A stretch of DNA of 23,394 nucleotides. Source: a virus. The stretch is from positions 1 to 23,394 of the IMG/VR virus record IMGVR_UViG_3300035181_002226. One strand, written 5' to 3'. The position numbers and the translations under genes were made by a program. Positions 4,192 through 21,762 of this stretch are shown in pieces. The notes beneath the pieces were generated by a model. That model had not been told where the DNA came from, made no database searches, and worked only from the letters and a program-made list of their open reading frames with translations. Position 1 is the first letter of the stretch. The number at the start of each line of letters is the position of its first letter.

Positions 4192-4404
4192 TTAAATTAC
4201 TTCATACTCCATTTTATCTTCATCATCGTCGTCCTCTTTATCATCTATAAGACTGACAACACTACAGTCTACAATTTCGACATTATCTCCATAGATAAAG
4301 TAAACTATATCATAAGCTTCATCTTCATATTCAGCGTCTACTACAACAGGAAGAACACCCGTTTCACCGTTAACATTAGCTAATAGAAACCTAAAGCTTA
4401 ACAT
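4192..4404 (-). CDS. Hypothetical protein, tandem paralog B, 70 aa
   Basis: The chosen start is ATG 4402-4404, which overlaps the upstream stop as TGATG and implies translational coupling; a TTG one codon upstream is possible but less likely. The protein is a clear paralog of its upstream neighbour: both share SFRFLL..NV.G..GVL, then V.A..E.EAYDI, then YG..VE...C. This copy has an added acidic C-terminal tail (DDKEDDDDEDKMEYEVI). The conserved half looks like a small alpha/beta domain. Function unknown. Confidence 0.75.
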   Translation of the reverse strand: MLSFRFLLANVNGETGVLPVVVDAEYEDEAYDIVYFIYGDNVEIVDCSVVSLIDDKEDDDDEDKMEYEVI

Positions 4405-8947: not shown

Positions 8948-9241
8948 TCAACCTTCTCCACCACCATAACCACCAGATCCGTTACCGTCTCCGTAACCAT
9001 ATCCAGCGCCATAACCATCTCCATTGCCATAACCGTCTCCGATACCGTAACCAACACCATCGCCATCATTAAATATAGAACCTTGACCGTTTGCAGAACC
9101 GCAACCTAGTCCACAGCCGTATCCAGATCCGTTACCATCTCCAGATCCGTTACCATCTCCAAATCCAAACTGTGAACCAAATCCATCACCAGTACCATTA
9201 CCGAATCCGGAACTTTTATTAATGTGTCTATCTAACCACAT
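8948..9241 (-). CDS. Gly-rich low-complexity repeat protein B, 97 aa
   Basis: After a short N-terminus (MWLDRHINKSSGFG) the protein is almost entirely GxGxGx repeats with x mostly Asp, Asn, Ser or Tyr, plus two Cys (YGCGLGCGS). One short non-repeat spacer occurs (SIFNDGDGV). It starts 14 nt inside the end of the DUF6948-like gene. The composition suggests an unfolded, hydrophilic, possibly phase-separating or cation-binding chain, without a true RTX nonapeptide. A paralogous protein lies on the other side of the DUF6948-like gene. Function unknown. Confidence 0.75.
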   Translation of the reverse strand: MWLDRHINKSSGFGNGTGDGFGSQFGFGDGNGSGDGNGSGYGCGLGCGSANGQGSIFNDGDGVGYGIGDGYGNGDGYGAGYGYGDGNGSGGYGGGEG

Positions 9242-9608: not shown

Positions 9609-9938
9609 TTATCCTTTATTTAAAATTTCATCTTGGTCTGAATCATCTTCCCAGTCTCCATTACCACAGCCAAAACCACTACCACAACCATAGTTACGAC
9701 CATAACCAGAGCCGCCGCCACAGCCATAGTCGTTACCAGAACCAGAGCCACTACCAGATCCATCACCGTCTCCATCTCCATAACTAGTGCCTTCGCCCGA
9801 ACCATAACCAAATCCATATCCATCACCATATCCATCTCCCATTCCAGAACCACTACCTGAACCTGCACCATAACCGCTACCAGATCCGTCGCCGAATCCA
9901 AAACCGAAGTCTATACCTATATTTTCATCAAGTAGCAT
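9609..9938 (-). CDS. Gly-rich low-complexity repeat protein A, 109 aa
   Basis: 109 residues: a short start (MLLDENIGIDFGFGFG), then about 75 residues of GxG repeats (x = Ser, Asp, Tyr, occasionally Cys), then an acidic tail (DWEDDSDQDEILNKG). ATG 9936-9938 has AAAGGAT upstream and begins 19 nt after smpB. The ordered alternation of Gly with Asp, Ser and Tyr is stronger than chance composition and is shared with the gene at 8948. Likely intrinsically disordered. The repeat also keeps a second reading frame open, which is not a separate gene. Confidence 0.75.
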   Translation of the reverse strand: MLLDENIGIDFGFGFGDGSGSGYGAGSGSGSGMGDGYGDGYGFGYGSGEGTSYGDGDGDGSGSGSGSGNDYGCGGGSGYGRNYGCGSGFGCGNGDWEDDSDQDEILNKG

Positions 9939-9956: not shown

Positions 9957-10367
9957 TTAATTGCCATCGCCTCTTCTTATTAAATCTCTTTCTTTTATTG
10001 TTTCTCTCTTTTCGTATTGTTTTTTACCTCTACAAAATCCAACTTTTAGCCTAATAACTGTTTTTTCGTCTTGATATAACTCGAGAGGTATAATAGTAGT
10101 TCCCTTTTCAGAAAGAAATTTCATCATTTTCTCTCTTTCTTTCTTAGTACAGAGAACTGTCTTTAACCTTGTAGGATCGTCAACCTTTCCTATATGAAAT
10201 TTCGTATAGACACCTTTAGAGTCAATCATACAATATTCACCTTTTAAGTTCGCTCGGTGTTCTCTGATGGCCTTTACCTCTTGTCCAAAAAGTATCAAGG
10301 AACACTCAAGCTCCTTTTCGATTGTATAATCGAATTTCGCTTTTGTGTTCTTAGCGAATGATATCAT
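9957..10367 (-). CDS. smpB: SmpB, tmRNA-binding protein (phage-encoded)
   Basis: 136 residues (bacterial SmpB is about 145-160). SmpB is an OB-fold protein that binds the tRNA-like domain of tmRNA and carries it to stalled ribosomes. Hallmarks are present in order: AKFDYTIEKELECSLILFGQ (strand 1 and RNA-binding Glu), EVKAIREHRANLKGEYCMI (family EVK.LR...A.L...Y), IPLELY (family V.L.LY), LKVGFCRGKKQYEKR and ETIKERD, the conserved basic segment leading to the C-terminal tail that enters the decoding centre. The tail after that is short (LIRRGDGN). The start overlaps the yqeY-like stop (ATGA). With a tmRNA gene 1 kb upstream, it probably serves the phage's own tmRNA. Confidence 0.95.
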   Translation of the reverse strand: MISFAKNTKAKFDYTIEKELECSLILFGQEVKAIREHRANLKGEYCMIDSKGVYTKFHIGKVDDPTRLKTVLCTKKEREKMMKFLSEKGTTIIPLELYQDEKTVIRLKVGFCRGKKQYEKRETIKERDLIRRGDGN

Positions 10368-10765
10368 ATACCTAACACCTGTTTAGATAGTTCTGATAGA
10401 CTTTTAGGATTATACAGACCATCAAAATTTTGTTTAAAATGAGCGTTTATTTCTCCTAGCGATTTTGGAACAGCAGGAAGAGATTTTTCAGAAACTAGCT
10501 TTTTAATTCCATTTACTACTTCATCGTCATTCATTTGTTTTGGAAGATAAGATTCATAAAGCGCCCTTTCCGAGTCTTTCAAATATTCGTTCTTCAACAA
10601 GTTTCTAATTACTTGAACACATTCACCGTCAGTACTCTCCCTGTTACCTTTATTCTTTCCTGGAGCCATCACTTCTCCAAGAAGGAACGATAGATCTTCT
10701 TTTGTTGGTAAGTTGTTTTTTCTAGCTATATACAAGTCTCCATATATTTTTGCTTGAATACCCAT
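10364..10765 (-). CDS. YqeY-like (GatB/YqeY tail domain) protein
   Basis: 133 residues; YqeY proteins are about 148. The C-terminal two-thirds follow the family: ALYESYLPKQMNDDEVVNGI corresponds to E...L..YLPKQ.S..E....I, and SLGEINAHFKQNFDGLYNPK corresponds to .MGKVM..LK....G..D. YqeY resembles the helical tail of the amidotransferase subunit GatB, which contacts tRNA; its own function is not established. The gene is translationally coupled to smpB by a 4-nt overlap. That association suggests a role in translation or tRNA-like RNA handling, but this is inference. Phage homologues annotated as GatB/YqeY-domain proteins are known. Confidence 0.75.
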   Translation of the reverse strand: MGIQAKIYGDLYIARKNNLPTKEDLSFLLGEVMAPGKNKGNRESTDGECVQVIRNLLKNEYLKDSERALYESYLPKQMNDDEVVNGIKKLVSEKSLPAVPKSLGEINAHFKQNFDGLYNPKSLSELSKQVLGI

Positions 10766-11270: not shown

Positions 11271-11303
11271 ATTATAACTAAAAATTTCTTAAACTAATCT
11301 TAA
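11271..11303 (-). promoter_or_regulatory. Campylobacterota-type promoter for the smpB transcript
   Basis: Minus-strand TATAAT (11271-11276) with CTTAA complements at 11288 (+17) and 11299 (+28). It sits between the tmRNA 3' end (11342) and the 92-aa gene, so smpB has its own promoter and is not obliged to be read from the tmRNA transcript. Confidence 0.83.
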
Positions 11304-11341
11304 ATTTCAGCAAAATTAAAAATTAAGGTTAATTTAAGAAA

Positions 11342-11629
11342 TGGTGGACGATACGGCATCGAAGCCGTGTTATCCTGATATCTTCGTTAAGAAATAGTTA
11401 AAACAAAATCGCACTTGAAACGATTTTGAGTTCAAATAGGAGTTTTACAATGTTTTTAGAGAAAAGTGAAAAGAAAGGAAAAGAAAAAATTCAACTTCGT
11501 AGCAAAAGGAGTTGTTTCTTGTTAAGCTGCCAACTCCGCTGCAGGTTTAAAGTTTGTATTGTTTGCACTTATTTGTTTTCAAGTGTATTTCTTACCTACA
11601 CAATAACAGGATCTTACCCTTAACCGCCC
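11342..11629 (-). ncRNA. ssrA: tmRNA (ssrA), phage-encoded
   Basis: A 288-nt tmRNA, shorter than the E. coli 363 nt. The 5' end GGGCGGT (11623-11629) pairs with ATCGTCC (11346-11352), giving a 7-bp acceptor stem with two G-U pairs, followed by A and an encoded CCA (11342-11344). The T-arm is ACGGC/GCCGT with a TTCGAT loop (11353-11368). A P2 helix pairs 11602-11612 with 11372-11382 (10 of 11 pairs). The tag reads GCA ... TAA at 11522-11566, 63 nt from the 5' end. A P5-like helix GGAGTTG/CAACTCC (11531-11537 with 11508-11514) encloses the stop codon. A hairpin CAAAATCG/CGATTTTG (11404-11411, 11421-11428), whose loop can pair upstream, looks like a late pseudoknot. The usual GGNTTCGAC segment after the acceptor is not visible, and the T-loop has six rather than seven bases. 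Identity is firm; exact ends are inferred. Confidence 0.9.
11522..11566 (-). other. tmRNA tag reading frame: ANNTNFKPAAELAA
   Basis: Resume codon GCA at 11564-11566, then AAC AAT ACA AAC TTT AAA CCT GCA GCG GAG TTG GCA GCT and TAA at 11522-11524. The upstream context CAAATAAGT before GCA resembles the conserved A-rich resume region. The first half resembles epsilonproteobacterial tags as I recall them (Campylobacter jejuni ANNVKFAPAYAKAA). The end is ELAA; Leu-Ala-Ala is the classic ClpX-recognised C-terminus, whereas those host tags end AKAA. A ClpP gene occurs in the same window. Confidence 0.92.
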
Positions 11630-11797
11630 GTGTTTAAATGGAAGCTGGTTTCATTGTTTAAGCAATGTTCCCAGCTGAGACAACAACTATACGCACACCC
11701 TTAAAACTATGCGATCCTTTGCTGCCGAAGGATTTCTCGAGACATTGAAGTAGAGGTGCACTTACTTCTGAATACTCAATGAGAAATTATTCGAATG

Positions 11798-11839
11798 ACT
11801 TTCTTCGATGGCTATTCTCGAATAGCCATCGAAGAAAGT
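11798..11839. repeat. Perfect 20-bp inverted repeat with 2-nt spacer
   Basis: ACTTTCTTCGATGGCTATTC (11798-11817) is followed by TC and its exact complement GAATAGCCATCGAAGAAAGT (11820-11839). A G-T and A-T pairs extend it outwards. The spacer is too short for a stable RNA loop without opening the top base pairs. It has no T-tract on either side. It is the strongest palindrome in the window. Confidence 0.85.
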
Positions 11840-11864
11840 TATTAAGTGCTTCATTAAACAATCA

Positions 11865-11937
11865 ACGGGTAGTTACTCCCGTGTATCCATCTAGCCTCTT
11901 CCTATCATTGAAAGAGGTTACTGATAACTAAATGGAC
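11865..11937. repeat. Structured tandem unit 1
   Basis: Plus-strand order: hairpin ACGGG/CCCGT (11865-11869, 11878-11882), then TATCCATCTAG, hairpin CCTCTT/AAGAGG (11895-11900, 11912-11917), then TTACTGATAACTAAATGGAC. The outer arms CCATCTAG (11887-11894) and CTAAATGG (11928-11935) pair to form a branched structure. One position is a C-A mismatch as plus-strand RNA but a U-G wobble as minus-strand RNA. Confidence 0.7.
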
Positions 11938-11958
11938 TTTTTATTAAGCACACAGTCA

Positions 11959-12029
11959 GCGGCGCTATTTGACGCCGCATATCCGTCTAGCCTCTTTCGA
12001 CAAAAGAGGTTACTGGCAACTAGATGGAC
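11959..12029. repeat. Structured tandem unit 2
   Basis: It has the same architecture as unit 1, offset by 92-96 nt: hairpin GCGGCG/CGCCGC (11959-11964, 11973-11978), TATCCGTCTAG, hairpin CCTCTTT/AAAGAGG (11991-11997, 12003-12009), TTACTGGCAACTAGATGGAC. The leading hairpin has different bases from unit 1 but keeps pairing, which is evidence that structure is selected. Both units are bordered by TATTAAG followed by GTGC or GCAC. Confidence 0.7.
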
Positions 12030-12034
12030 TTATT

Positions 12035-12073
12035 TCTAAAGCCTAGCACAAAGGTGTATTATTCGGCTTTAGA
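12035..12073. terminator. 9-bp hairpin just past the 67-aa gene
   Basis: TCTAAAGCC (12035-12043) and GGCTTTAGA (12065-12073) pair, with a short inner CAC/GTG stem. It begins 6 nt after the stop of the 67-aa gene. As minus-strand RNA it lacks a U-tract (AAATAAG follows), so it may be the 5' boundary element of the structured RNA region rather than a terminator. On the plus side it is followed by T-rich sequence. Confidence 0.45.
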
Positions 12074-12078
12074 TCGTT

Positions 12079-12282
12079 TTATTTTGTAGCGTTTGCTTCA
12101 GCTTTTTTAGCTTCAGCTGCTTTTTTTGCTTCAGCTTTTTTAGCTTTTCTTTCTTCAGCTTTTTTAGCTTTTTTTGATTCGACTTTTTCAGTTTTGTTTT
12201 CATCAGCTTTTTTAGCTTCAGCTGCAAAACCTACAGAAGCAAGACCAGCTATAACAAGAAGGCTTACAAGAACTTTTTTCAT
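12079..12282 (-). CDS. Exported small Lys/Ala/Glu-rich protein
   Basis: 67 residues. Residues 1-21 form a signal peptide: basic MKK, apolar VLVSLLVIAGLASVG, then FAAEA with a likely signal peptidase I site after FAA or nearby. The mature part is a run of Lys, Ala and Glu with an imperfect KKAEAKKA-type repeat, expected to be a highly basic single helix in the periplasm. ATG 12280-12282 has a strong AAAGGAGAT. A promoter (12334) and a 10-bp 5' leader hairpin precede it, implying high or stabilised expression. Similar small Lys/Ala-rich exported proteins occur in bacteria; the role in a phage is unknown. The nucleotide repeats are low-complexity. Confidence 0.75.
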   Translation of the reverse strand: MKKVLVSLLVIAGLASVGFAAEAKKADENKTEKVESKKAKKAEERKAKKAEAKKAAEAKKAEANATK

Positions 12283-12333: not shown

Positions 12334-12356
12334 ATTATATTCTAAAAAAGTTTAAA
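12334..12356 (-). promoter_or_regulatory. Promoter for the 67-aa gene and possibly the structured RNA and tmRNA
   Basis: Minus-strand TATAAT (12334-12339) with a TTTAAAC element at +16 to +17 (12350-12355) and T-rich DNA beyond. It is less perfect than the six canonical copies but has the same layout. No other clear promoter is found between here and the tmRNA. Confidence 0.68.
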
Positions 12357-16173: not shown

Positions 16174-17634
16174 TCACGAGAAAAGTTCTTTCATTTTTTC
16201 TTTAGCCTCGTCCCAACTTCCAGTCATAGTACCAAAAGAATATTCTGAGACAGTACTTTCAAAGAAATTAGTGTAAGTAGTCAGACTCAACTGATTTTCC
16301 ATCCAAGGAAGAGGATTTTCTTTGATACCGTAGTTCGGTTTGAGTCCGAATTGTTTTAATCTTTGATCAGCAATATATCTTACATAAAGTTTCATTTCAT
16401 CTTTAGTAAGATTATTCAAGTCTCCTAGTTTGAATACATAATCAATATAATCTTCTTCTTTAGCTACAATCTGTCTGGCAGCTTCGTAAATATCTCTTTT
16501 AAAATCATCATTCCAGATTTGTCTATTCTCTTTTATTATAGTTTTGAATAACCAAGCGTTGCCGTCGATGTGACAGTTTCCAGTAACAGAAACTTTGCCA
16601 TTACTTCTAATAACAAAAGCTTTTCCTGGAACAGTTGGACAATAGAAATTTTTTTTATCTGTATTTTCAAGCTTTGTTTTTTCTATTTTACTACTACCGC
16701 CTTTTATAAATTCATCACCTTCCACAAATTCATATTTTTCTGCTATTTCTTCTTGTGCTTTTCCATCTCTTTTAAATACCATTCTATGACCAGGAGTAAC
16801 TATTTGTTCGACATCATCTGACTCAAATTTATAATAGTAATCTGGACAAGATTTAGTAAAGTGTGTTGGTTCTACAAAAGAATATTCTTCTGTTTCCATA
16901 TCGAATTGGAGTATTTTTTCTCCTGGCTGAAGATCTTCTATCTTTTTCCAAGAACCATCTTCTAATTGAACTTCCGTACCTTCTATTATACAATTTTCAT
17001 CAAGGATACTCCACGACAAAACCTTGTTCATACCAGGAAATTTACCATCTCTAGAGAAAGAAGCTAGTATAGCAAACTGAGCAAATAAAGATATACCTTC
17101 TACTAAACCAGAATAAACAGCTATCATTCTAGCAACATCTTTTCTGAATTCTATATCAGCTTTTTCTATACCATATTCAGAAACATAGTAATGGAATTGT
17201 CTAACTCTTGCTTTATGTATATAATCATATTTTAGAGAAAGACTAGGAATATACTCGTATTCTTTATAGAACTCTTCTGGAAAGCCTAGAGTATCAAGAA
17301 GCAAACTATAAGCGTCTTGATGTAGAGATTCTCTGTTTCCGAAGCTTCTCAACATCATTTTAACTTCATTGGGTTTAAATGCTCTAATAAGAATATCATA
17401 TCCCATACCTACTTCTGTGTCATTTTGAACAAAACCTTGAAATATACTTGTTATTATGTGCTTTTCTTCTATAGAAATAGTAGTCCAGTCTTTCATATCG
17501 CCTGAAAGGTCTATCTCTTCGGTAGTCCAGTGAAGGGCTACCTCGTGAGTTTTATATCTATCATAAGCGCTTGGATAATGAAATGGTTTATATGATTTTG
17601 AATCAGTATGAAATAAATTATATTTTTTTGACAT
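16174..17634 (-). CDS. nrdB: Ribonucleotide reductase beta subunit (class Ia, NrdB) with mini-intein
   Basis: 486 residues as translated; 347 after removal of the intein (T4 NrdB is 388). NrdB houses the diiron-tyrosyl radical used by NrdA to reduce ribonucleotides to deoxyribonucleotides. Ligand motif ESLH (102-105) and the radical Tyr at 109 (H...Y spacing as in E. coli H118/Y122) are visible, as is the ligand Glu in LVEGISLFAQFA (about 179). The last ligand pair, Glu213 and the following His (E. coli E238/H241), is split by the intein: LDEN | intein | CHIDGN. The C-terminal part YADQRLKQFGL and NFFESTVSEYSFGT matches NrdB. It follows nrdA by 15 nt. Confidence 0.96.
   Translation of the reverse strand: MSKKYNLFHTDSKSYKPFHYPSAYDRYKTHEVALHWTTEEIDLSGDMKDWTTISIEEKHIITSIFQGFVQNDTEVGMGYDILIRAFKPNEVKMMLRSFGNRESLHQDAYSLLLDTLGFPEEFYKEYEYIPSLSLKYDYIHKARVRQFHYYVSEYGIEKADIEFRKDVARMIAVYSGLVEGISLFAQFAILASFSRDGKFPGMNKVLSWSILDENCIIEGTEVQLEDGSWKKIEDLQPGEKILQFDMETEEYSFVEPTHFTKSCPDYYYKFESDDVEQIVTPGHRMVFKRDGKAQEEIAEKYEFVEGDEFIKGGSSKIEKTKLENTDKKNFYCPTVPGKAFVIRSNGKVSVTGNCHIDGNAWLFKTIIKENRQIWNDDFKRDIYEAARQIVAKEEDYIDYVFKLGDLNNLTKDEMKLYVRYIADQRLKQFGLKPNYGIKENPLPWMENQLSLTTYTNFFESTVSEYSFGTMTGSWDEAKEKMKELFS
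16576..16992 (-). other. NrdB mini-intein, 139 aa, no endonuclease
   Basis: Residues 215-353 of the precursor. Block A is CIIEGTEVQLEDGSWKKIED with Cys1. Block B contains VTPGHR (Thr-x-x-His). Block F is FYCPTVPGKAFVIRSNG. The C-terminus is VSVTGN followed by Cys+1. The penultimate residue is Gly instead of the usual His, a known but uncommon variant. At 139 residues it is close to the minimum for a cis-splicing Hint domain and has no room for a homing endonuclease. Confidence 0.93.
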
Positions 17635-17649
17635 TTTACACCATCCTTT

Positions 17650-18726
17650 TTATTGACAAGACAAACAAGTTTCATATTTGTCCATTTCTTGAATTATTTC
17701 TCTTTCGTAATTTGAGCTAGCTTTAGTAGCAGATTGACTTCTACAGTAGTAAAGACCTTTTAATCCAGCTTTCCAAGCTTGTAAATGTACATAAGCAAGA
17801 TAACTTCTATCAACATCGTGATTAAAGAATAGATTTACGGATTGACCTTGGTCAATTTTTTCTTGTCTTACTTTAGCGTGAGAAATAATCCATCTTTGGT
17901 CTATTTCGTAAGCTGTTTTGAATACAAGTTTAGCGTCGTCACTCATCCACTCAAGACCTTGAACAGAACCTCTGTCTTTGATTATTCTTTTCCACTGTTT
18001 TTCAATCCACTTATCATCTTCGCCGTTCTCTTCAGCATATTTCTTGATATACTTTTCAAGATTGACATTTCTTATTTCGTGTTTTCCTGTTTTATTTTCG
18101 TGAATATAAGCGTTAGCTATAATAGGATCTATTCCAGGAGACACATTGTCACAAAGAATAGAAATACTTCCAGTAGGAGCAATAGCCATCTTACAGACGA
18201 ATCTATCAGTTCCATCTCCATATTCGATAGACATAGGACAAGCGCCTTTTTCTTTAGCTATTTCTTTTGACGCTCTATCAGTAGCATCTTTCAAGAAAGT
18301 ACAAACCTTTCTTTGGAAACCTTCAGCAAGAGCTGACTCGAAAGGTATCATTTTAGATTGGAGATATGTGTGAAGACCCATTTGACCTAGACCAACAGAT
18401 CTTTCATATAGAGCGGATTTAAGAGAGTTTTGGAAACCTCTCGGTTCACCGAATTTTCCAGATTTAGCTTTTCTTTCAAAATCGTCAATTACATTATCAA
18501 GAAGTCTCATAATATCTTCTATAAATTGGTAGTTGTCTTTCCACTCATCGTATTTTGCTAGGTTGACTGAAGCCAAACAACATACAGCAGTGTAATCTTC
18601 TGCTACTCTCAACATTATTTCATTGCAGTTTGAAACTAGTATTTCATTAGCGAAAAAATTGTGGTTATCCTCCACAGTTATATCATAAACAGGAATTTCT
18701 TCCTCTAAAAATTCTATTTTGAGCAT
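17650..18726 (-). CDS. nrdA: IntC::NrdA C-terminal half (split-intein gene)
   Basis: 358 residues: a 33-residue C-intein, then 325 residues of NrdA. The extein begins CNEIML, equivalent to E. coli LCLEIAL, whose Cys439 is the thiyl-radical residue. Next comes AVCCLASVNLA (C462 equivalent), PTGSISILCDNVSPGIDPII, the radical-transfer tyrosine pair in GLKGLYYCRS, and a C-terminal CLSCQ thiol pair for re-reduction. ATG 18724-18726 has AAGGGAAG 8 nt upstream and starts 15 nt after the N-half gene ends. By itself it lacks the first catalytic Cys, so activity needs trans-splicing with the product of 18742-19809. Confidence 0.94.
   Translation of the reverse strand: MLKIEFLEEEIPVYDITVEDNHNFFANEILVSNCNEIMLRVAEDYTAVCCLASVNLAKYDEWKDNYQFIEDIMRLLDNVIDDFERKAKSGKFGEPRGFQNSLKSALYERSVGLGQMGLHTYLQSKMIPFESALAEGFQRKVCTFLKDATDRASKEIAKEKGACPMSIEYGDGTDRFVCKMAIAPTGSISILCDNVSPGIDPIIANAYIHENKTGKHEIRNVNLEKYIKKYAEENGEDDKWIEKQWKRIIKDRGSVQGLEWMSDDAKLVFKTAYEIDQRWIISHAKVRQEKIDQGQSVNLFFNHDVDRSYLAYVHLQAWKAGLKGLYYCRSQSATKASSNYEREIIQEMDKYETCLSCQ
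18628..18726 (-). other. Split intein C-part (IntC), 33 aa
   Basis: MLKIEFLEEEIPVYDITVED followed by NHNFFANEILVSN and Cys+1. The block F signature (VYDITVEDNHNFF) and block G (ILVSN|C) are standard for split inteins; penultimate Ser replaces His. Its partner is at 18745-19029. Confidence 0.94.
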
Positions 18727-18741
18727 ATATTTCTTCCCTTA

Positions 18742-19809
18742 TTAAGATATTTTAAGAACATCAGTTTCATTCAAATCTTTGGCCATAACATAACCTCTGT
18801 TTTCTGTCCAAATTTTATGGTCAGGAGTACAAACGATTTGTTTGCCAGATTCAGTATCTGTTATTCTCATTACTTTAGCTTTAGGCGAAGTCATAGCAAA
18901 ATCAGTAACTTCTTTGAATGAAATTTCTTTTGTTTCAGTATTCATAGACTTTACTTTATCGCCTATTTTTATATCTTTTAGTTTTTTATAGCCTTCTTCT
19001 GTTTCTAATATAGAATCGCCAGATAAGCATAACTGTGAAGTTGTTATTTTCCATCCAGCTTTCACATACAATTCATTCAAATTCTTATTAGCGTTTTCCG
19101 AAAAGAATAGATAAGGTTCGCCGTGTTGATGTCTCTTAGTAAGAATTTTTGTAAATATGTCAAAAGCATCTAGAGTTTTTACTACACTTCCGTCTTTTCT
19201 AGAGTATAGGTTATATGACTCGCCGTTTATGACAGCATTTAAAAACTCATCAGTAAGTTTTACTGCGTGATGTAGTTTAGGCATCCTTCTTTCTATAGAA
19301 GCACCTTTTGTAGTTCTCATTTCTATAAATTCTTCTATTTCAGGATGATGTACATCTAGATAAATTGCTTGAGAGGCTCTTCTCAAACCTCCTTGAGAAA
19401 TACCTTGAGCAATAGACTCGCTTATTTTTAGGAAAGGCATTATACCTGATGTTTTACCGTTCTTAGTTTTAGCGCCTACCTCTCTTACTTCTGAGAAGTC
19501 ATTTCCTATACCACCTCCAGCAGCACCAAGAACCATAGCCTCATAATATTTGTTAAAGATATCATTAAGAGAATCTGAAGTTTGCTGTACGAAACAAGAA
19601 ATAGGTAAACCTCTTTCATTTCCTAGATTCGCTGTTATTGGTGTTGATGTTCTAAACCAATTTCGCTCAAAATAGCTATAAAGTCTTTTTTCGTGTTCGG
19701 GATTGTCGGCTCCAGCGCGACAAACTCTTTTGTAAACGTCTTCGGGTTTTTCTCCTGCTGCAGGATTCACATACGACTCTTGAAGCATAATTCTTTCAAA
19801 TTCGTTCAT
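18742..19809 (-). CDS. nrdA: NrdA N-terminal half::IntN (split-intein gene)
   Basis: 355 residues: 260 of NrdA, then a 95-residue N-intein. NrdA motifs include ISCFVQQTSDSLNDIF (Cys72, E. coli C225 equivalent), LGAAGGGIG, and QGGLRRASQAIYLDVHHPEI. The extein starts MNEFERIMLQESYVNPAAGE, directly at the catalytic ten-helix region, so the N-terminal ATP-cone of longer class Ia enzymes is absent and dATP feedback at that site is not expected. The joined NrdA would be about 585 residues, versus 754 in T4. The last extein residues are TTSQL, with splicing joining Leu260 to the radical Cys. ATG 19807-19809 follows AAAGGAAAAAG. Confidence 0.94.
   Translation of the reverse strand: MNEFERIMLQESYVNPAAGEKPEDVYKRVCRAGADNPEHEKRLYSYFERNWFRTSTPITANLGNERGLPISCFVQQTSDSLNDIFNKYYEAMVLGAAGGGIGNDFSEVREVGAKTKNGKTSGIMPFLKISESIAQGISQGGLRRASQAIYLDVHHPEIEEFIEMRTTKGASIERRMPKLHHAVKLTDEFLNAVINGESYNLYSRKDGSVVKTLDAFDIFTKILTKRHQHGEPYLFFSENANKNLNELYVKAGWKITTSQLCLSGDSILETEEGYKKLKDIKIGDKVKSMNTETKEISFKEVTDFAMTSPKAKVMRITDTESGKQIVCTPDHKIWTENRGYVMAKDLNETDVLKIS
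18745..19029 (-). other. Split intein N-part (IntN), 95 aa
   Basis: It begins CLSGDSILETEEGYKKLKDI (block A, Cys1) and contains IVCTPDHKIWTENRGYVMAK (block B, Thr-x-x-His). It ends DLNETDVLKIS and a stop. Its length is typical of phage-type split inteins such as gp41-1. There is no endonuclease between the two halves, only 15 nt. Confidence 0.94.
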
Positions 19810-19896: not shown

Positions 19897-20484
19897 TCAG
19901 TTCGTCGGTTTCTCTTTAATGTGATCAATAGCTCCAAATTCTAAAGCTTCTTTTGGAGACATCCAACAGTCTCTTTCTAATTTGTCATAAATTACTTCTT
20001 TTTTTTGTCCTGTATTTTCACTTAGAATTTCATACAGTCTTTCTTTAAGGAACATAACTTCTTTGTAGTGAATTCCTATATCAGTTACCTGTCCTTGTAC
20101 TCCCGATAAAGGTTGATGGAAGAGTATACGAGAATTAGGTAAAGTGTATCTTTGACCTTTAGTACCGCAAGAAAGAATGAAAGCTCCCATTGAAGCTGCT
20201 TGACCAATACAAACAGTTCTAACAGGAGAAGAAATAGTTCTCATAATATCAACTAGAGAAAAGCCGTCTGTAATTACTCCTCCTGGAGAGTTTATAAGCA
20301 TAGTTATTTGCTCGTCCGAAACAGAATCAAGATAAAGCAGCTGAGATATCACTGAAGTAACAAGTTCTTCTTCTATTTCTCCTACAAGAAATACTGTTCT
20401 ATTTTTATTAAATAGTCGGCTATAACAGTCATACTGTTTTTCGCCTCTAGTATTTGATTCAATTGCTATTGGATTTACTATCAT
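19897..20484 (-). CDS. clpP: ClpP-family ATP-dependent protease subunit
   Basis: 195 residues (E. coli ClpP 207). ClpP forms a double-heptamer chamber that degrades proteins fed by ClpX or ClpA. The catalytic triad is Ser98 (GQAASMGAF), His123 (ILFHQPL) and Asp172 (ERDCWMS). YDCYSRLFNKNRTVFLVGEI, INSPGGVITDG and the His-proximal LPNSRI are all standard. The N-terminus (NPIAIESNTRGEKQYD) retains the axial-loop start and has little or no propeptide. No Clp ATPase is encoded in the window, so the phage enzyme would need a host or distant unfoldase. ATG 20482-20484 follows AAAAGGAAC. Degrading tmRNA-tagged proteins (tag ending ELAA) is an attractive role. Confidence 0.95.
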   Translation of the reverse strand: MIVNPIAIESNTRGEKQYDCYSRLFNKNRTVFLVGEIEEELVTSVISQLLYLDSVSDEQITMLINSPGGVITDGFSLVDIMRTISSPVRTVCIGQAASMGAFILSCGTKGQRYTLPNSRILFHQPLSGVQGQVTDIGIHYKEVMFLKERLYEILSENTGQKKEVIYDKLERDCWMSPKEALEFGAIDHIKEKPTN

Positions 20485-21063: not shown

Positions 21064-21363
21064 TTAATTGTGTCTCAAAAAGACTTTATGTAACTTAAAT
21101 TGTATAAATCTTTCTTGGGTTTTTACATAGTTTTTACCACAAATAGAATAAGACAAGCAATATGCTTTTTCAAATATTACTCTATCACCTTCTTTGATAT
21201 TTTTTACTTTTTTACCAACAGCAATTACAGTACCTTTAGCTTGTCTTTCTGAATCAATTCTTTCACCTTCTTCATCAGAAGTATCAAGTTCATCAGAATC
21301 AAGCTCTATTACTATATCTCTTTTGTTTAACCATAAAAGAATTGATTGTGTTTCTTCTGACAT
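21064..21363 (-). CDS. GroES-like co-chaperonin paralog, degenerate mobile loop
   Basis: 99 residues. The core KGTVIAVGKKVKNIKEGDRVIFEKAY and the C-terminal strand aligning with the sister gene identify a Cpn10 beta-barrel (GroES pattern G.V.AVG......VGD.V.F). The segment where GroES carries the flexible GroEL-binding loop reads LDTSDEEGERIDSERQ, acidic and without the hydrophobic Ile-Val-Leu-type tripeptide. It also has an extended C-terminus (FKLHKVFLRHN). It may form mixed rings with the other copy or have lost GroEL binding. ATG 21361-21363 with AAAGGAAG; own promoter at 21412. Confidence 0.78.
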   Translation of the reverse strand: MSEETQSILLWLNKRDIVIELDSDELDTSDEEGERIDSERQAKGTVIAVGKKVKNIKEGDRVIFEKAYCLSYSICGKNYVKTQERFIQFKLHKVFLRHN

Positions 21364-21474: not shown

Positions 21475-21762
21475 TTAATCCATTTTGAGTTGAATATGTT
21501 TCTCCAGAATCTGTGTATACTTCTTATCACCAACAGTGTAATCGATACCGAACTCTTTTCCAAAAACTACTTTATCACCGACTTCGACCTCTTTTACTTT
21601 ACTACCAACAACAACTACAGTACCTTGAGTTTGTCTATCTAAAACAGATCTATTTCCTACTCCAGTAATAATACCAGACTCAGTTATTTGTTCGTACGGA
21701 TCAAGTTCTATTACTACATCTTTTTTATTAACCCATCTAGGAACTGAAGGAAATTCAAACAT
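21475..21762 (-). CDS. GroES-like co-chaperonin (Cpn10 fold, gp31-like role)
   Basis: 95 residues, the GroES length. DVVIELDPYEQITESGIITG contains the mobile loop with the hydrophobic GIIT tripeptide (GroES GGIVLTG). The barrel follows: QGTVVVVGSKVKEVEVGDKV, then VFGKEFGIDYTV and a closing strand HIQLKM. GroES caps the host GroEL chamber; T4 gp31 does the same to fold the large capsid protein, so a role in virion folding is likely. The first strand differs (PRWVNKKDVVIEL). AGAAAGGAG precedes ATG 21760-21762. It lies directly upstream of a second, loop-less paralog. Confidence 0.87.
   Translation of the reverse strand: MFEFPSVPRWVNKKDVVIELDPYEQITESGIITGVGNRSVLDRQTQGTVVVVGSKVKEVEVGDKVVFGKEFGIDYTVGDKKYTQILEKHIQLKMD

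Follow-up and report, generated by a model that had tools for sequence, protein, structure and literature searches.

A candidate structured RNA encoded directly upstream of the tmRNA of a phage

We describe a candidate RNA of no known family, found in one phage lineage and encoded on the minus strand at 11630-12078, directly upstream of a phage tmRNA. The stretch has a strong fold, holds no gene and carries two tandem modules with paired helices; a copy of the phage promoter motif lies ahead of it, the tmRNA adjoins it, and a terminator-like hairpin follows the tmRNA. We tentatively prefer the explanation that a structured phage RNA is made together with the tmRNA and cut from it, most likely acting as an RNA of its own.

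Results

The window (the whole stretch of DNA analysed here) is a virus record of 23,394 nt, and the same phage is also represented by two longer contigs, G001 (138,481 nt) and G002 (93,728 nt); base 1 of the window corresponds to position 4270 of G001. Over the 12,408 nt compared, G001 and G002 each differ from the window at 23 positions, and across 1081 nt around the structured stretch the three sequences show zero differences. The phage genes include those for a DnaB-type helicase, a DNA ligase, a ribonucleotide reductase with intein parts, SmpB and ClpP. The best named-phage matches of DnaB are to Campylobacter phages and cyanophages (35-37% identity), and its nearest viral contig, L007, reaches 45%. 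From these matches and from the ANN- start of the tmRNA tag, which is also known from Campylobacter, our guess is that the host belongs to the Campylobacterota. On the L007 contig, which is a fragment, we found no exact promoter motif of the kind described below and no match to the structured stretch; the tmRNA query gave short weak matches there (E 0.19 or worse), and RF00023 gave nothing.

Several other features of the phage were recorded. The ribonucleotide reductase genes at 16174-19809 of the window encode both subunits with intein (Hint) parts, two ORFs (8948-9241 and 9609-9938) consist largely of Gly-rich repeats such as GYG, GDG and GSG, and two GroES-like (Cpn10) genes follow one another at 21064-21363 and 21475-21762. 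Outside the window, G001 carries a group I intron (RF00028, 85 bits, L257:6884-7160, equal to G001 86884-87160) and a TnpB-type element (Pfam Cas12f1-like_TNB, 4.5e-19, L258:184-1593), whose dispersed copies and repeated ends lie at G001 1-946, 97774-97889, 100151-101934 and 115539-116981.

Fold statistics were computed for 11640-12075, a region that the sequence-only reading had called densely structured. The results showed an MFE of -154.9 kcal/mol on the minus strand (z -9.6) and of -146.4 kcal/mol on the plus strand (z -8.5), and on either strand 0 of 100 shuffles was as good. Among 54 minus-strand stretches of 436 nt (53 tiles and the structured stretch itself, 12 shuffles each), it ranked first by both energy and z, which bears out the dense structure. 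The second-ranked tile (11773-12208, z -9.4) overlaps the larger part of it, and the best non-overlapping 436-nt tile reached z -3.8. The signal is uneven, the tile at 11337-11772, with the 3' end of the structured stretch and the tmRNA, having a z of only -1.3. When 776 segments of 120 nt were scanned (mean z -0.5, sd 1.3), minus-strand peaks appeared at 11761-11880 (z -6.3; by z the plus strand folds better here, at -8.4) and at 11881-12000 (z -4.6), and the other five segments within 11641-12120 gave minus-strand values from -0.9 to -2.2. After removal of the long 24-bp hairpin described below, z was -5.5 on the minus strand and -4.0 on the plus strand (60 shuffles each), indicating that the strong fold is not due to this hairpin alone.

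The predicted minus-strand fold contains nine hairpins, in agreement with the at least eight counted in the earlier reading. From the 5' end, it begins with a hairpin at 12035-12073 (arms CUAAAGCC and GGCUUUAG) that no U run follows, and continues with the tandem modules A (11949-12030) and B (11856-11938). Next, at 11794-11843, is a hairpin whose 24-nt arms are separated by 2 nt, and after it come three more: a long imperfect one at 11727-11792, one at 11679-11726 and the last ahead of the tmRNA at 11643-11676. The hairpin at 11794-11843 is the sole inverted repeat in G001 with arms of at least 18 nt, no more than one mismatch and a spacer of 2-12 nt. The higher G+C content noticed before also holds, at 0.41 for the stretch compared with 0.32 for the phage contig, and so does the lack of a gene: the minus strand has no ORF of 50 aa within the stretch and one that overlaps its first 10 nt. 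On the plus strand, there is one 50-aa ORF inside the stretch, at 11779-11931. The earlier placement beside the tmRNA stands, with its limits corrected to run on the minus strand from 12078, just past an ORF stop codon, to 11630, at the tmRNA 5' end.

Modules A and B, of about 85 nt, share one structure, in which a helix P1 of 10 bp is followed by a 10-nt bulge confined to the 5' side, a helix P2 of 7 bp and a hairpin P3. In the bulge, 8 of 10 positions are the same in both (UU..CAGUAA). The modules differ by 19 substitutions, eight of them in stem columns, and six of these eight are transitions. Counting both modules, 44 of 45 pair cells are standard and two P3 pairs are changed on both sides; the one broken pair is an A.C mismatch in P1 of module A, and in B a gap stands opposite the innermost P3 pair of A. 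Of the pairs intact in A, 21 have no gap in B, and none of these is broken there. The minus strand is favoured by the pair count, as 44 of the 45 cells pair there and 41 when the modules are read on the plus strand.

Several controls were applied to this comparison. When the partners were slid by 1-3 columns, 39-48% of cells were paired and no two-sided change remained. Eight random stem substitutions left all 21 pairs intact in 0.004% of 50,000 trials (0.2% if 70% were transitions), and random substitution gave at least two compatible double changes in 1.9% (2.9% with 70% transitions). The shuffle control is weak, with 127 of 500 shuffles reaching the observed counts in an alignment of two sequences only. 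Taken together, the differences between the modules appear mostly to keep the pairing. By eye, the 10-nt bulge could form a pseudoknot with the P2 loop in module B only, and we make no claim for it.

Downstream of the stretch, a phage tmRNA was located at 11342-11629 on the minus strand by acceptor pairing, RF00023, relaxed ARAGORN and the fold. Its 5' GGGCGGU pairs with the 3' AUCGUCC, with a G3.U70 pair, and ACCA follows; G3.U70 is the pair that gives tRNA-Ala and tmRNA their alanine identity. The T-arm has a 6-nt loop rather than one of 7 nt. The resume consensus is present, and the tag reading frame at 11522-11566, called by relaxed ARAGORN, encodes ANNTNFKPAAELAA followed by a stop codon, so that it ends in AA-stop. 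Neither ARAGORN at default settings nor Rfam at the gathering threshold reported this tmRNA in the window. A single-family search of the window with RF00023 gave E 2.3e-5 and 13.5 bits, against a cut-off of 47 bits, and in all-family scans the same model gave E 0.0046 over 1121 nt and 0.0014 over 331 nt. Taken alone, relaxed ARAGORN is weak evidence: a tmRNA was also called in 75 of 300 shuffled copies, and for this tag the program proposes further 5' ends besides 11629; the Rfam alignment begins at 11619. The sequence at 11342-11629 looks reduced, as what follows the tag is mostly U/C-rich with few predicted helices.

We considered whether the structured stretch could be a part of the tmRNA. 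Every 7-bp match to the acceptor 3' strand fits the pattern GGRYGRT, and the minus strand of the surrounding 3.4-kb locus (L001) has a single copy of this pattern, at 11629-11623. This single match places the structured stretch upstream of, and outside, the mature tmRNA, and the idea was rejected. The neighbour at 11629-11342 is a tmRNA (RF00023), and the stretch itself is, by acceptor pairing, not in the mature RNA.

The window also contains other genes of ribosome rescue and protein turnover on the minus strand. The SmpB gene (9957-10367; Pfam PF01668, 1.5e-31) lies 1 kb downstream of the tmRNA, and the ClpP protease gene is at 19897-20484 (Pfam PF00574, 2.4e-64). Next to SmpB, 10364-10765 encodes a YqeY/tRNA-amidotransferase-like protein (phrog_1460, 3.1e-14), for which the Pfam YqeY match (1.6e-5, 25.5 bits) is under the cut-off of 27. 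The presence of SmpB and ClpP in the same window fits the tmRNA call, and the tmRNA, SmpB and ClpP are parts of a phage-owned set for ribosome rescue and degradation of tagged proteins. According to an excerpt of PMC7162821, tmRNA and SmpB occur in huge phages, and in an excerpt of PMC8040213 a likely tmRNA was called by ARAGORN in 1 of 36 occurrences. A search with the tag pattern returned 22 stretches, two of them from this phage and 20 whose frame lacks a tag-like end; by eye, 15 of the 20 belong to one coding family.

A promoter motif, TTAARC-N9-13-TAWAAT, was derived from G001 copies, and it came from repeats between noncoding stretches of that contig. One of the copies from which it was derived, TTAAAC-N10-TATAAT at 12334-12355 on the minus strand, would start a transcript at about 12327. 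In G001 the motif occurs 27 times on the minus strand and twice on the plus strand, with 2.1 expected in all and at most 4 in 20 draws; 27 of these 29 copies are on the strand with most ORFs. In the window there are 8 copies, all on the minus strand, compared with 0.5 expected, and 0 of 100 shuffles reached 8. The copy at 12355-12334 is 51 nt ahead of the ATG of a 67-aa ORF (12079-12282, minus strand), whose product has by eye a signal-peptide-like start and is then rich in Ala, Lys and Glu; it has no match in Pfam, PHROG or the named phages. Between this ORF and the tmRNA we found no copy of the motif. At the other end, an AT-rich terminator-like hairpin at 11284-11342 on the minus strand (24-nt arms, 88% complementary, followed by TTTTAG) begins at the CCA end of the tmRNA. 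The promoter copy, the lack of another before the tmRNA and the terminator-like hairpin suggest that the 67-aa ORF, the structured RNA and the tmRNA probably share one transcript.

Consensus scans were also run. The sigma-70-like pattern had one match inside the stretch (11814-11786, minus strand), which is at chance level (2 found, 2.9 expected). The terminator-like pattern gave two sites (0.7 expected), one at P3 of module B and one at 11428-11404 within the tmRNA, and the hairpin at 11284-11342 is absent from its list.

The stretch begins right after the stop codon of the 67-aa ORF and its first hairpin lacks a U run, so we considered a role as the 3' UTR of that ORF, protecting or regulating its mRNA. 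Its 450 nt and two tandem modules, however, exceed the need of a protective stem, and the transcript probably continues into a stable RNA; we regard this reading as highly improbable.

A further possibility is a cis-acting leader of the tmRNA precursor that controls the synthesis, folding or processing of the tmRNA, for example through tandem aptamers, and has no function after cleavage. The end of the stretch at the tmRNA 5' end, with no phage promoter copy between them, is consistent with it, and the tandem modules resemble tandem aptamers, although in layout only. There is also a precedent in the Melnitz phage, in which, according to an excerpt of PMC9004378, a structured element, a glutamine riboswitch, is coupled to a phage tmRNA. 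The Melnitz element, however, belongs to a known riboswitch family and goes with a two-piece permuted tmRNA, whereas here no riboswitch family was matched and the tmRNA has the one-piece order. Nor does the stretch have a convincing expression platform, as the sole listed terminator-like site inside it is the 5-bp P3 of module B with a poor U run, and 20 other phage tmRNAs are without such a leader. We consider a leader function possible, with a lower probability than the explanation stated at the outset.

These 20 tmRNAs were found by ARAGORN among 86 phage loci and include five near copies (one pair and one triple). In the 436 nt upstream of them, z ranged from -3.9 to 1.4 and ORFs of at least 60 aa on either strand covered 0.54-1.0 of the sequence, compared with z -8.9 and a cover of 0.02 here (20 shuffles each). 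Hence, phage tmRNAs do not usually have such a stretch beside them.

A second noncoding stretch, of 1.2 kb and with two copies of the phage promoter, lies to the left of the window in locus L253, at G001 2903-2189 and 3241-2931. In the 420 nt scanned after each promoter copy, there is no ATG ORF of 40 codons; a 46-aa GTG ORF is at G001 2247-2387. The 715 nt at G001 2903-2189 have z -7.4 on the minus strand and -7.5 on the plus strand. Rfam gave sub-threshold matches only, the best other than microRNAs being T-box at E 0.21. We regard G001 2903-2189 as a candidate for a second, larger structured RNA.

Rfam families were then compared with the phage sequence. At the gathering threshold there is no family in the window, and the whole of G001 has only the group I intron. 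The structured stretch matched no family even at lax E-values, riboswitch families, GOLLD and ROOL included; the 24-bp hairpin drew weak matches from microRNA families (best E 0.022), which fall well short of their cut-offs and were set aside as the matches any long hairpin would give. The GOLLD model (RF02032) had no match at E 10 in the window or G001, in a search in which 5 of 14 control genomes gave matches, none over the cut-off and so with no true positive control. The ROOL model (RF03087) likewise had no match at E 10, and nothing in the control genomes either, so that it too had no positive control. The earlier statement that the motifs are not recognised is therefore upheld, with GOLLD and ROOL included, and the Rfam/Infernal check that it had proposed was run and matched no already described RNA family.

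According to an excerpt of PMC12286853, GOLLD and ROOL are both large structured RNAs that phages and prophages encode, in many cases close to tRNA islands; GOLLD is of unknown function, and for ROOL no partner has been identified. By the same excerpt many GOLLD members exceed 800 nt, whereas our stretch has about 450 nt; unlike GOLLD, it adjoins a tmRNA in a contig where no tRNA was found. An excerpt of PMC2864571 does not contain the word GOLLD. As the 138-kb contig G001, which is possibly incomplete, has no detected tRNA gene, the earlier likening to RNAs near tRNA genes does not apply.

We searched for relatives of the structured stretch by several methods. With blastn, no homologue was found among named phages and plasmids; at E 10 there were 18 records, with E 0.5 or worse and at most 11% of the query. 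Three module patterns run over viral contigs returned 2 stretches (both from this phage), 18 (two from this phage) and 8 (two from this phage), and one module pattern run over genome contigs returned 21, about chance by our own estimate. A covariance model, R1, was built from the two modules and finds module A at 101.6 bits by construction; built from two sequences only, it could miss distant relatives. Over 88 sources R1 matched only the window, over 16 none, over 21 one at E 4.4, and over 7 only this phage. Among whole records, it matched none of 50 (with no positive control) and only the control G001 among 38. Of the 78 new SmpB loci, 46 were covered by these whole records and the remainder at locus length within the 88 sources; of the 80 DnaB loci, 37 were covered by whole records and 43 were left out. 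The SmpB loci were 80 of 390 matches, and the DnaB loci at least 80 among the matches listed.

The nucleotide search for homologues proposed in the sequence-only reading thus yielded two near-identical contigs of the same phage and no homologue outside it, and these contigs are the only relatives found by any of the methods. The evolutionary support therefore rests on the two internal copies. In the open-licence literature, among the matches listed (titles and starts of abstracts), we found no description of a phage tmRNA preceded by a structured RNA that belongs to no known family.

The lack of homologues and the internal duplication would also fit a decayed or selfish sequence left over from tRNA genes or a mobile element, folded and with no function, and the phage does carry a TnpB element with dispersed copies. 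Descent from tRNAs was rejected on the finding of no tRNA in G001, and descent from a mobile-element end on the lack of similarity, at E 0.05, to the ends of the TnpB element or to other parts of G001. Moreover, the module differences keep pairing, and the 1081 identical nucleotides stand against 23 differences per 12.4 kb in each contig, a result that chance gives about 1 time in 8 by our own estimate. We judge decay unlikely.

Discussion

The explanation that we put first, with less than firm confidence, is a structured phage RNA made with the tmRNA, cut from it and most likely acting as an RNA of its own. The transcript would start at the promoter copy at 12355-12334 and run through the 67-aa ORF, the structured RNA and the tmRNA to the hairpin after the CCA end. 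RNase P, cutting at the 5' end of the tmRNA (11630/11629), would create the 3' end of the structured RNA, and RNase III could plausibly enter at the 24-bp hairpin (11794-11843). The tandem modules would offer, on a stiff stem, a repeated unpaired strand of 10 nt, as a binding site for protein or RNA would. The RNA may then act in trans in the phage's takeover of ribosome rescue, together with the tmRNA, SmpB and ClpP. We rank action in trans over the cis-acting leader because no expression platform is visible and because the phage's own promoters appear to give at least one more large structured RNA.

In a bolder form of this proposal, the stretch would represent a new class of phage RNA that is processed out of the tmRNA precursor and influences ribosome rescue in trans, and at least one more large structured RNA would come from the same kind of promoter; we consider this combination rather doubtful. 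With regard to the sequence-only reading, what we find is a stretch beside a phage tmRNA that is noncoding, densely structured and probably transcribed and that matches no Rfam family, and its status as a class, seen in a single lineage, is neither proven nor refuted. The link to the ribosome or tmRNA suggested there is retained by position only, through the same presumed transcript and through SmpB and ClpP in the window.

We know of no function for GOLLD, ROOL and similar large structured RNAs of phages. If the RNA indeed lies on the tmRNA transcript of a phage with SmpB and ClpP, this would tie such an RNA to ribosome rescue and to the decay of tagged proteins, and a test of function would become simple. 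Even as nothing more than a leader, it would represent an unusual form of control over a phage tmRNA.
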